In this document: piece after piece, positions 50,845 to 55,284 of the stretch
How the letters are laid out: the number at the start of each line of letters is the position of its first letter
Position numbering within the stretch: position 1 is the stretch's first letter
Assembly (NCBI RefSeq): GCF_001513785.1
Contig: NZ_LNQS01000008.1
Coordinates: forward strand, 744,001 to 808,000
Length of the DNA stretch: 64,000 nt
Source of the DNA: Rheinheimera sp. EpRS3
GTDB lineage: Bacteria; Pseudomonadota; Gammaproteobacteria; Enterobacterales; Alteromonadaceae
Direction: 5' to 3'
Program-made: the position numbers and the translations under genes
The notes under the pieces: model-generated
The model's input: only the letters and a program-made list of their open reading frames with translations
Told to the model about the DNA's origin: nothing
Database searches by the model: none

Positions 50845-51765
50845 TTACAGTTTTGCTGCCAGCTCAAGAAAACTTATAGACGGCACAAAAAACGCGGCAC
50901 TAAAATCAATGCGGCTGTAATTTAGTAGCTGATCATAGCCCTGAGTTTGCTCTGCCAGCCCTAACCTGCGTTTGAGTTGCTGCAGCAGAACGCCCGCATC
51001 TGCTGCATAGGTTAACTGCAACATCCCTTGTACCTTTGGTTGTGAAAAAGGCATGTTTTGCTGCAAAAAAATACCCTGCGCGGTATCTGGCTGCATCACT
51101 GCATAATGGCTATCAGCGGCCTGTCGCCCTGCTAGAAAGGGTTTACCCGACACTTTATCCATTCCCATTATGTCTTCCTGTTGCCCAGTATTCAGTTGCT
51201 GCCAACTGCTCAGATCAAAATTAAGACAATGTAAATACAAGTAACTGCCGCCGGCAAAGACCGGCTGCTGAAGATGGTCAACTAATGCTGCCACACGCTT
51301 GGTTTTTCCTTTTGGATTACACGGTGCATCAATGAAACCGGTAAGGCTGCGGCCATCAAGATAACGAAACCCCTGAATATGCTCCTGCAACTCAGCATGG
51401 CCCTGTAACAGCTGCAACACCTGTTGCGTGGCAATAAAATTAACGTCCAGACGGTCAGAGCGGATTTGAATCATTAAATCCAGTGGCACAGGCGCAAGAT
51501 CAATATCCTCAGCCGGTAAATCAGGAAAAGGGCTAAGGCCCGCAGGTCTGGCATCCGGATACAACATATCCCAGTAGTTGCTACCAATAGCCACGACACT
51601 GGTTAACAATGCTTCAGAGAAATGCGTGGCCAAGCGATCAAATAGCTGTGGCAAACGGGCAAGTTTGTGCCGCAATACCCGCTCGTGCCCCTCCAGCGCG
51701 TTAAAGAATAAATAGCCACCATGCAGGTTTGCTTCAGTACAAATTCCCAGTTGCTCTCTGGCCAT
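50845..51765 (-). CDS. DyP-type peroxidase-like protein with altered active site
   Basis: This 306-residue protein has the two ferredoxin-like halves of the DyP family (YfeX-like). The GXXDG motif reads G143-F-I-D146-A: catalytic Asp present, final Gly changed to Ala. The proximal haem ligand fits His220 (ADSHYAV). The distal Arg expected four residues before the conserved Pro (R-Q-S-L-P-Y-G in YfeX) is Gln235 in LQQNMPFS. Loss of the distal Arg should lower peroxide cleavage, so haem binding or another activity may be retained. AAGGA lies five bases upstream of the ATG. It stands beside the csrB locus. Confidence 0.82.
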   Translation of the reverse strand: MAREQLGICTEANLHGGYLFFNALEGHERVLRHKLARLPQLFDRLATHFSEALLTSVVAIGSNYWDMLYPDARPAGLSPFPDLPAEDIDLAPVPLDLMIQIRSDRLDVNFIATQQVLQLLQGHAELQEHIQGFRYLDGRSLTGFIDAPCNPKGKTKRVAALVDHLQQPVFAGGSYLYLHCLNFDLSSWQQLNTGQQEDIMGMDKVSGKPFLAGRQAADSHYAVMQPDTAQGIFLQQNMPFSQPKVQGMLQLTYAADAGVLLQQLKRRLGLAEQTQGYDQLLNYSRIDFSAAFFVPSISFLELAAKL

Positions 51766-51817
51766 AACAATCCTTTTTTAACTACATGCCACAATAACCG
51801 CTTTCAGGCCGGTATTC

Positions 51818-51837
51818 TTGTGAGATATATCTCACAA
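51818..51837. promoter_or_regulatory. GacA/UvrY binding site of csrB
   Basis: TTGTGAGATATATCTCACAA is a perfect 20-bp palindrome. Its core TGTGAG-N6-CTCACA fits the GacA/UvrY box (TGTAAG-N6-CTTACA; E. coli form TGTGAGAGATCTCTTACA). It is centred about 160 bp upstream of the predicted csrB start, a distance similar to that in enterics. The AT-rich stretch between (51840-51960) could hold a DNA-bending site. Confidence 0.75.
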
Positions 51838-51977
51838 AAGAGTAAGTTTAAACGCTATTTTACATAGAAAGCACAAAGATGGAAAAACTGTATCACTATG
51901 AAATTAAAAGCAAAATTACAAAAAATAACACTTTTACAATAATATTACATAGTGCAAATGATAAAAAAGCCATGCCG

Positions 51978-51983
51978 TATACT
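51978..51983 (+). promoter_or_regulatory. -10 box of csrB promoter
   Basis: TATACT matches the sigma-70 -10 consensus at five of six bases. No good -35 hexamer lies 16-18 bp upstream, as expected for an activator-dependent promoter. Transcription would begin near 51990. Confidence 0.55.
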
Positions 51984-51989
51984 CACAAT

Positions 51990-52340
51990 AAAGCGCATAC
52001 TTTCTTCGTCAACGGATAAGCAGGCTGACAGGATGTCAGCGTTAAATGCACGAAGCAATACCTTGCTAGGATAGCACAGCGGTAGCAGACAGGACATGCT
52101 CAGGATGAGCACAGAATTTTCAGATTCTTCACCGGCGCTGAAAATAAAATGGAAGAAAGCAGGACCTCTCAGGATGAGAGTACATTATCAGGATGATAAT
52201 GTTTATGGATGACAGGACCAGGCAAGATGCCTTTTGGACACTCCGGGATGGAGCCAGGGATGAAATGCTACGGATAGTATCGACACGGATGACGAAAAAG
52301 GACCTTAGGTGGCCGCGTAGTTTGCGGCCTACCTTCTTTA
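51990..52340 (+). ncRNA. csrB: CsrB-family regulatory RNA (CsrA-sequestering)
   Basis: A 705-bp gap without a believable gene holds 17 GGA motifs between 52014 and 52302, all on the plus strand. Many sit in hairpin loops. GCTGAC-AGGAT-GTCAGC is at 52024-52040, TGCTA-GGA-TAGCA at 52064-52076, and TGCTC-AGGAT-GAGCA at 52097-52111. CTCTC-AGGAT-GAGAG is at 52166-52180, ACATTATC-AGGAT-GATAATGT at 52182-52202, and CTCC-GGGAT-GGAG at 52241-52253. CAGGATG in loops is the repeat of CsrB RNAs, which bind many CsrA dimers and relieve repression of target mRNAs. Predicted length is about 350 nt, close to E. coli CsrB. A -10 box and UvrY palindrome precede it and a terminator ends it. Exact ends are inferred. 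Confidence 0.92.
52307..52339 (+). terminator. Terminator of csrB
   Basis: AGGT-GGCCGC pairs with GCGGCC-T-ACCT (one bulged T) around a seven-base loop, followed by TTCTTT. The T run is interrupted, so termination efficiency is uncertain, but the location right after the last GGA motif fits. Confidence 0.7.
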
Positions 52341-52470
52341 CCGATACCGCAACAATATCTACCTGCACCACACTCGTTTATCTCATCTTCAGTGCAAAAT
52401 CCAATGTAATATTATCTTACTCAGGCTACACTTGCCCTTGCTGTAATCTGTCAAAGGACCTGTATCTGAT

Positions 52471-55284
52471 ATGCTATTAAATGGACGTAAAACCTGCATT
52501 ATATTGTTGTGGTGTTTATCATTAACGCCCGGGACATTGTTTGCCTCAGCAGAGGCTGATTATGAGAAAGCACTACAAGCCTTTCAGCAAAACGAGCAAC
52601 AGGCCGCTTATATTCACCTGAAAAATGTCCTGCAACAAGCCCCCGATCATATCCCTGCCAAAGTGCTGATGGGAAAGATCCTGCTACAAAAAGGTTATTT
52701 CAACGAGGCAATTGTCGAGTTTGAAGAATCCCTGCGTGAAGGCGCCGATATTGAGCTTATGTTAGCTGAACTGGCAAATAGCTATTTATTTACCGGCAAA
52801 CATCAACAGGTTATTGCTTTGGGCCAGGACCATAAGCTATCTGCCGACAGTCAGTTTGACTGGCATTTATTTACCGCTGCGGCCTATCTTAATCTGAATG
52901 ACACTGACAACGCGCGGCAGCATTTTCAATTGGCGGGCAAACTGCAGCCAGACTCTGTGCGGCTGTTAAACAGCCAGGCTGCATTGCTGTTAAAAGAAAA
53001 GCGTTTAAAAGAAGCCGAATTACTGATAGAGCAAGCGTTGCAACAAAATAACGCTAACCCCCAGTCACTGCAGTTGAAGGCTGAGTTATTACAATTACAA
53101 GGACAGTTGCCCAAAGCGCAGCACTACTATGAACAAGCGGTTCAGCTCAGCCCTCAGGATCCCTTACTTCGGCGTGCTTTACTACGCAACTATGTCAGCC
53201 AGTATAAAACCGAGCTGGCAGAAAAAACGCTGCAAATAATTTTACAGCAAACCCCGGATGACCCTTATGCCTTGCTATTATCAGCCTGGCTGTCATCATT
53301 AAAACAAAATCTGGCTGATGCCACAGCTGTCAGCACTCAGCTTAGCGAAAAATTGTGGCAACTGACGAAAGAGCAAGTAGTTAACCAACCATCACTGCTG
53401 TTTTCCCGCGCTTTGTTATCTTACGTCGACGGCAACTATGAGAAAGCCCGCAGTGATCTGGTTTCTTATAATCAGGCGGTGCCGGCAGATCTCAACGCTG
53501 TTGCTATCCTGACAGATGTTTATATCAGACAGGGCGATAACGGCGTAGCAATACAATTGTTGGAGCGCCATTTAGCCCAGCTTAATAATATGCCGGAACT
53601 GGCACAGCGCCTGATAACACTTTATATAAGAACAAACCGGGCTTATAAAGCGGAGCAGCTCATAGCCAATTTACGCTTACAGTTTCCAGACAATATCGAT
53701 TTTACACTGCTTCATGCTGCTGTATTAAAGCAAATAGCCCAGGATCAACAAGCCCGTGATTTAATCGCCGAGCAGTCAGCACTGCATAGCGATAACCTAT
53801 TGCTGCGTATAAACCATGCGTTGCTTGCTTTGGATAATAAAGATTATGCCCAGGCACTGACGCTGGCGGATCAACTGCTGTCGGAAGACGCCGATAATGT
53901 GCATTATCTGAATTTTAAAGCTGCGACACTGATCAAAAGTGGCCAGGCACAGCTAGCTATTCCTGTGCTGGAGCATATATTAACGTTGCAGCCAGCACAT
54001 ACGGCAGCGCAGTTTAATCTGGCAACGCTGGCTATTCACCAGCAGCAGTATCAACAGGCCATTGCATTGCTGGAACCTTTGGTACAGCTTTATCCACAGC
54101 ATAAACCAGCCAGTACCTTATTGGGCATGGCGTATTTCAGGGCTGAGCAGTTTGAAAAAGCTGAAGCGGTGCTGCTGAAAACCGTTGCCAGTAAACCCTA
54201 TCCACCGGCAGACGAACTGCTGTTTGACCTGTACTTTCAGCAAGGCCGTTACCAGCAAGCTCTGGTTGTAACAGAACAAGCGCTTAAACGTTCTTTTATG
54301 GATGAAACACTGCTGTGGAAGAAAGCCCAACTATTGCTGTTATTAAAGCAATCTGACGAAAGCATAAAAGTACAGAACTTGCTGGTTGGCCTGATAACGG
54401 CAGATGCAGACAAAATGCTACGCCTGGCCCTGATGCAGCGTGAAAGCGCAGATCTTGCAGCATCCGGCCAGTCACTGCACAGCGCACTGCAACTTGCTCC
54501 GCAACATAAGCTATTACAGCTGGAACTGGTCAACCATTACCTTATTACTGAGCAGTACAACAAAGCAGAGCAACAGCTTAAACCGCTGGCAGCTAAGTTT
54601 CCATCTGATCCGAACATACTGATGTTACAAGGTGATATTGTCGCCGCTCAGCGGCAATACGAAGCTGCCAGAAAAATCTACTTAAATGCTATAGGGCACG
54701 ACCCACAGTTCAGACTAGCCTGGGTTAAGCTGTACCAGCTGGCAAAATCTGGCTATGGCGCAAATGCCTTTACTGACGCAGCGTTAAAAACACTAAATAC
54801 CAGCAAAGATCCAAGTTGGCTTCGAAGATTACTGGCAGAACATTATGTGAATAAGCAACTCACAGCAGAAGCTATTACTCAGTATGAAACGTTGCTGGCC
54901 AACGGCGACTTTACGGAAGACGCTTTACTGCACAATAACCTGGCTAACCTGTATCTGGGCTCTGATACCGCAAAAGCCTTACAACATGCCGAAAAAACGC
55001 TGGCACTGGCACCCAAACAGGCATTCTCGTTAGATACCTACGGCTGGGTATTGGCGCAATCGGGTCAGTATCAGCAAGCGGTGGCAATCTTGCGGCAGGC
55101 AAATGCACTGAATGCCACTGATCCGGCGATTCGTTTTCATATAGCTTATACACTAGTAAAACTGCAGCGTCAGGCTGAAGCTATCGAACTGCTGCGACAA
55201 TTGCTGGCAAATAGCAATGACTTTACCGAAAAGCAACAAGCGACACAGTTGCTAGAGCAGCTTGTTGCAGCCAACTCAGCCTGA
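52471..55284 (+). CDS. Large exported TPR protein (PrsT-like)
   Basis: This 937-residue protein has a signal peptide (about 1-26). Some 20 or more tetratricopeptide-like helix pairs then cover almost the full length, for example AKVLMGKILLQKGYFNEAIV near the start and FSLDTYGWVLAQSGQYQQAV near the end. Size, start (ADYEKALQAFQQNEQQAAYI) and layout resemble the TPR proteins named PrsT that accompany exosortase/PEP-CTERM polysaccharide loci, but no exosortase or polysaccharide gene is near. A scaffold role in the periplasm is inferred. AAGGA lies about 12 bases before the ATG, a long spacing. It lies 130 bp downstream of csrB, and the end overlaps mgsA by nine bases. Confidence 0.8.
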   Translation: MLLNGRKTCIILLWCLSLTPGTLFASAEADYEKALQAFQQNEQQAAYIHLKNVLQQAPDHIPAKVLMGKILLQKGYFNEAIVEFEESLREGADIELMLAELANSYLFTGKHQQVIALGQDHKLSADSQFDWHLFTAAAYLNLNDTDNARQHFQLAGKLQPDSVRLLNSQAALLLKEKRLKEAELLIEQALQQNNANPQSLQLKAELLQLQGQLPKAQHYYEQAVQLSPQDPLLRRALLRNYVSQYKTELAEKTLQIILQQTPDDPYALLLSAWLSSLKQNLADATAVSTQLSEKLWQLTKEQVVNQPSLLFSRALLSYVDGNYEKARSDLVSYNQAVPADLNAVAILTDVYIRQGDNGVAIQLLERHLAQLNNMPELAQRLITLYIRTNRAYKAEQLIANLRLQFPDNIDFTLLHAAVLKQIAQDQQARDLIAEQSALHSDNLLLRINHALLALDNKDYAQALTLADQLLSEDADNVHYLNFKAATLIKSGQAQLAIPVLEHILTLQPAHTAAQFNLATLAIHQQQYQQAIALLEPLVQLYPQHKPASTLLGMAYFRAEQFEKAEAVLLKTVASKPYPPADELLFDLYFQQGRYQQALVVTEQALKRSFMDETLLWKKAQLLLLLKQSDESIKVQNLLVGLITADADKMLRLALMQRESADLAASGQSLHSALQLAPQHKLLQLELVNHYLITEQYNKAEQQLKPLAAKFPSDPNILMLQGDIVAAQRQYEAARKIYLNAIGHDPQFRLAWVKLYQLAKSGYGANAFTDAALKTLNTSKDPSWLRRLLAEHYVNKQLTAEAITQYETLLANGDFTEDALLHNNLANLYLGSDTAKALQHAEKTLALAPKQAFSLDTYGWVLAQSGQYQQAVAILRQANALNATDPAIRFHIAYTLVKLQRQAEAIELLRQLLANSNDFTEKQQATQLLEQLVAANSA

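Follow-up and report, generated by a model that had tools for sequence, protein, structure and literature searches.

The window, i.e. the whole 64-kb stretch of Rheinheimera DNA considered here, contains a gene-free gap of 705 bp at 51766-52470, and the flanking genes confirm the length given in the initial annotation. On one side lies a gene for a Dyp-type peroxidase, encoded on the minus strand and ending at 51765, with argR beyond it. On the other side is a gene for a PrsT-like TPR protein on the plus strand (52471-55284), whose product matches the XrtA/PEP-CTERM TPR protein PrsT (360.3 against a cut-off of 312.2). The identity of the peroxidase gene is 98% with Rheinheimera hassiensis, 91-92% with R. 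oceanensis and two R. pacifica, and 95% with a gammaproteobacterial MAG.

The plus strand of the gap is rich in GGA triplets. Region 51990-52340 contains 18 of them, the first at 52014 and the last at 52300, and the minus strand of the same region only one. The strand bias noted initially thus stands, and the count of 17 given with it is corrected to 18. Nine of these triplets occur as AGGA, seven as CAGGA and four as CAGGATG. Dinucleotide shuffles of the region have on average 9.8 GGA, 3.3 AGGA and 0.06 CAGGATG; the observed numbers were reached or exceeded in one, eight and none of 2000 shuffles, respectively. In all other 351-bp stretches of the window the maximum is 10 GGA on the plus strand and 11 on the minus strand.

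Many of the triplets are presented in hairpin loops. Nine hairpins of at least four pairs with GGA in the loop were found in 51990-52340, a number reached in none of 1000 shuffles, and six of them have at least five Watson-Crick pairs (shuffled mean 0.3, six in 0/1000), in agreement with the six or more hairpins reported initially. In the order in which helices are numbered in the covariation count below, GGA-loop hairpins are located on the plus strand at 52025-52039 (helix 1, CTGAC/GTCAG), 52064-52076 (helix 3, TGCTA/TAGCA), 52097-52111 (helix 4, TGCTC/GAGCA), 52166-52180 (helix 5, CTCTC/GAGAG), 52183-52201 (helix 6, CATTATC/GATAATG), 52241-52253 (helix 8, CTCC/GGAG) and 52265-52280 (helix 9, ATGCTA/TAGTAT), helices 4, 5 and 6 carrying CAGGATG. 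Helix 10 is a probable intrinsic terminator at 52307-52341 on the same strand, with the stem at 52307-52334 followed by a short T-rich tail. The terminator scan produced one terminator-like site, 52311-52329, versus 0.6 expected by chance. The fold of the whole molecule is only slightly more stable than those of shuffled sequences (z = -1.44, with 9 of 100 shuffles equally stable), a result that is neutral or counts against a structured RNA.

Helix 2 is a short plus-strand hairpin at 52047-52057 (TGC/GCA). Its loop is ACGAA in the window and in five near relatives, and contains GGA in the remaining 11 sequences of the 17-member alignment. Thus one probable CsrA site has been lost here.

The same region matches the CsrB family of Rfam, RF00018, at 52006-52341. 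The match covers the full length of the model (1-356) with a score of 42.6 bits and E-value 2.8e-10, and the CAGGATG loops correspond to the repeat of the RF00018 consensus. By E-value, this is the only significant family in the gap; the matches to OmrA-B (14.4 bits, E = 7.7, gathering score 40) and sR4 (12.9 bits, E = 3.3, gathering score 50) were rejected as chance. However, the gathering score of RF00018 is 71 bits, and a search of the window at gathering thresholds yields no Rfam family. The comparison with the Rfam model proposed initially is therefore favourable in length and E-value and falls short of the curated cut-off. As this cut-off is a score set by curators, the low score is read as divergence and not as a sign of a different kind of RNA. 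In a search with stricter filters, 45 of 60 relatives had an RF00018 match, nine of them above the cut-off, all from other families. Within the genus a match was found in 29 of 30 relatives, in no case above the cut-off. In the only genome of the genus where it was missed (G006), the UvrY-type palindrome described below is present next to the peroxidase gene, with 21 GGA in the 385 nt that follow it. That no match in the window or in the 30 same-genus relatives reaches the cut-off bears out the earlier remark that such RNAs are often left unannotated.

By the initial annotation, a lack of conservation of the GGA-loop hairpins in related genomes would speak against it. An alignment of 17 sequences was built from this genome and 16 same-genus relatives out of 30, L020 being left out, and ten hairpins with 51 stem pairs, read from the window sequence itself, were scored. 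Pairing is retained in 91.5% of the cells (shuffled mean 86.3, 0/500 as high). Both sides have changed in 21 of 51 pairs (shuffled mean 7.5) and in 42 cells (shuffled mean 9.1), and neither number was reached in 500 shuffles. Three of ten pairs of the terminator stem covary. Further pair types set the structure apart less clearly: there are 36, versus a shuffled mean of 32.2, and 26 of 500 shuffles reach that number. Slid controls had 25-54% of cells paired and 3-7 pairs with changes on both sides, a comparison that favours the observed structure, as it was taken from the window itself. RNAalifold, run independently on the alignment, placed hairpins at the same ten positions. Thus the hairpins are both kept and covarying. 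In three relatives (L025, L026 and L028) the RNA contains an extra stretch with additional GGA hairpins (alignment columns 114-190), which indicates that the number of CsrA sites grows and shrinks within the genus.

Downstream, the TPR gene has the same orientation, and a 95-codon open reading frame (52193-52480, plus strand) overlaps the conserved region. One might thus consider an untranslated leader of the TPR gene, or a small protein gene belonging to it, with CsrA regulating in cis. This is very improbable. In one relative (L016) the TPR gene is absent and the methylglyoxal synthase gene mgsA, on the opposite strand, directly follows the RNA with no intervening TPR frame. Moreover, the terminator-like hairpin would end the RNA ahead of the TPR gene. 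The coding reading of the 95-codon plus-strand frame was rejected: a stop codon interrupts it in 10 of the 17 sequences of the alignment, and in seven it is intact within the aligned part.

The upstream part of the gap contains several conserved elements. The palindrome TGTGAGATATATCTCACA at 51819-51836 is of the UvrY/GacA type, is kept in the genus, and is the only exact match in the window to TGTRAGN6CTYACA; the published UvrY box is TGTAAGN6CTTACA (as given in PMC3171408). It is adjoined by a conserved block GTAAGTTTAAACGCTATTT (51842-51860, plus strand), which may hold a half-site. Another conserved block, TTTTACAATAATATTACA (51932-51949, plus strand), is AT-rich and matches no recognised factor. 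An IHF consensus, at eight or more of nine positions, had no match in this promoter or in that of the second RNA described below. The likely -10 element is CATACT at 51996-52001 on the plus strand. All 17 genus loci have a hexamer [CG]ATA[AC]T whose spacing from the palindrome hardly varies, and the form kept in the genus is CATACT/CATAAT. The initial annotation noted a near-consensus -10 box upstream of the RNA; the conserved one is this CATACT, and the upstream TATACT was rejected, as it is not kept in the genus alignment. The promoter scan returned four promoter-like sites versus 2.1 expected, none at the favoured -10, for which it recognised no -35 partner. Neither this result nor that of the terminator scan is significant on its own. 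With this -10, transcription would start near 52008, placing the centre of the palindrome at about -181. This nearly coincides with the situation in E. coli csrB, where the box TGTGAGAGATCTCTTACA is described as centred at -183/-182 (PMC4682653).

The 4.4-Mb genome contains the protein components of the Csr circuit: one csrA-family match (99.7 bits against a cut-off of 70.1) and, above the respective cut-offs, one uvrY (355.9 bits, cut-off 280) and one barA (900.6 bits, cut-off 890). The pattern TGTRAGN6CTYACA occurs in this genome at 17 places if one mismatch is allowed, versus five for the reversed control, and four of the 17 are exact. The pattern by itself is not specific, since two exact sites of the form TGTAAGTGnnCACTYACA (L034:1501-1518 and L037:1501-1518) have no GGA-rich stretch nearby: the best 351-bp counts are seven and eight GGA, with no CAGGATG. 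These palindromes are perhaps sites of another regulator. Six of the 13 one-mismatch places were examined (L038-L043), and the best 351-bp counts there were five to nine GGA with at most one CAGGATG.

The narrower palindrome TGTGAGANATNTCTCACA behaves differently, and it is for this form alone, not for the looser pattern, that the box is confined to positions upstream of Csr RNAs. All but one of the 31 genus genomes contain it, at 42 places in total with each palindrome counted once, and all 42 were inspected; the reversed control had none. A csrB-like stretch with 18-25 GGA in approximately 350-385 nt follows at 29 places, and the remaining 13 are in a csrC-like position with 8-9 GGA in 385 nt. 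The marks of neighbouring genes, sought by regular expressions, were not seen in five of the 42 loci (L077, L090, L091, L101, L102); among the five, the mark of mgsA is present in L091, and L101 and L102 carry the same long frame for a cytochrome. One genome (G020) has an RF00018 match and the peroxidase mark on the fetched stretch, but no TGTGAGANATNTCTCACA palindrome. In another (G011) the palindrome is at the csrC-like place only, and the RF00018 match is elsewhere.

Taken together, the RF00018 match, the covarying hairpins, the UvrY/GacA-type box and the csrA, uvrY and barA genes identify, on sequence evidence, the plus-strand region 52008-52341 as very probably the csrB gene of a Rheinheimera species. 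Its product would be an RNA of about 330 nt that encodes no protein and titrates CsrA through its GGA hairpins. The start of the gene follows from the conserved -10 element and its end from the RF00018 match. The gene is apparently unannotated and belongs to a known family. In the predicted circuit, phosphorylated UvrY, with BarA as its kinase, would activate transcription of the RNA from 52008-52341 by binding to the palindrome some 180 bp before it; the GGA-loop hairpins would bind CsrA dimers, and the RNA would thereby draw CsrA off the leaders of target mRNAs, sequestration being the mode of action of the family. As CsrA binding is predicted and the Rfam score lies under the cut-off, one could imagine a GGA-rich RNA that has a different protein partner, or base pairing as its mode of action, and does not titrate CsrA. 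This seems exceedingly improbable, since the CAGGATG loops repeat the family consensus and the UvrY-type box, together with csrA, uvrY and barA, ties the RNA to the Csr circuit.

This RNA is not the sole candidate of its kind. A second RF00018 match was found in the same genome, on a different contig (G000:C10:244446-244738, 26.9 bits, E = 2.3e-5). It has the same palindrome upstream and contains three CAGGATG; the region with the palindrome is G000:C10:244244-244738 (L002:1299-1793). It is flanked on one side by genes for a c-type cytochrome and the GTPase YihA/EngB (191.6 bits, cut-off 124.45), and on the other by genes for YihI (123.1 bits, cut-off 90) and for a protein that resembles methyltransferases by no more than a weak match. 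In E. coli K-12, csrC is located between yihA and yihI. The second RNA is thus a probable csrC partner, which would be expressed under the same box as csrB. The initial annotation took the RNA in the window for the global Csr antagonist of the host: the CsrB identity is upheld, its being the only Csr RNA is not.

At least 13 of the 31 genus genomes have the csrC-like RNA. The alignment of these 13 sequences extends from the palindrome as far as a strong terminator, GGCGATAAG/CTTATCGCC with a T run; each has CATCAGGA loops and 8-9 GGA, and CAGGATG is absent in four. In the own genome and others of the 13, TGTAGGA is situated 5 bp downstream of the palindrome; the E. coli csrB palindrome is described as likewise followed by TGTAGGAGA (PMC4682653). 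The significance of the RF00018 match refers to the own genome, and the stricter-filter search listed one match per same-genus genome; thus the other 12 csrC-like RNAs are identified by palindrome, neighbours and alignment. The RF00018 loci from other families and genera (L003-L015, L021), each about 3 kb long, showed no short peptide marks of engB or yihI, and the csrC position is therefore supported for the genus and E. coli only.

The resemblance to E. coli CsrB includes the full-length match to the model, the CAGGATG hairpin loops and the UvrY-type palindrome at nearly equal distance; the score is below the gathering cut-off of the family, and the neighbours, argR, the Dyp peroxidase gene and the PrsT-like TPR gene, are different. 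The second RNA resembles E. coli CsrC in its place between engB (yihA) and yihI, the directions of the genes being the same in both genomes. However, the Rheinheimera stretch also holds the cytochrome c and methyltransferase-like genes, and the likeness described here is one of position. In the same order, the Pf1 sRNA of Pseudoalteromonas fuliginea is described as having 21 GGA motifs, GGA-bearing loops and a GacA-type box, and as acting on CsrA in an E. coli glycogen assay (PMC9927453). Compared by this description, it has the same design as the Rheinheimera RNA, whereas its matches, as reported there, are confined to Pseudoalteromonas. Shewanella oneidensis has two Csr RNAs, as Rheinheimera probably does. 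CsrB1 and CsrB2 are described as BarA/UvrY-dependent with predicted UvrY boxes, and they adjoin with a transposase gene between them (PMC3171408), whereas the Rheinheimera pair is on different contigs. Thus RNAs of the CsrB kind are well known in this order. In the collection of papers searched, none treats CsrB together with Rheinheimera.

For this genus, two RNAs that likely antagonise Csr can now be named along with their promoters, and it is an example of a genus whose CsrB-type RNAs are missed by the Rfam cut-off. The second RNA, at the place of E. coli csrC, provides a test of the age of the csrB/csrC pair. It is possible, and we propose it tentatively, leaning slightly against all three parts holding at once, that in Rheinheimera the strong UvrY box occurs solely before csrB and a csrC retaining its E. 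coli place between engB and yihI, that UvrY is almost wholly dedicated to the Csr RNAs, and that the pair predates the split of Enterobacterales and Alteromonadales.
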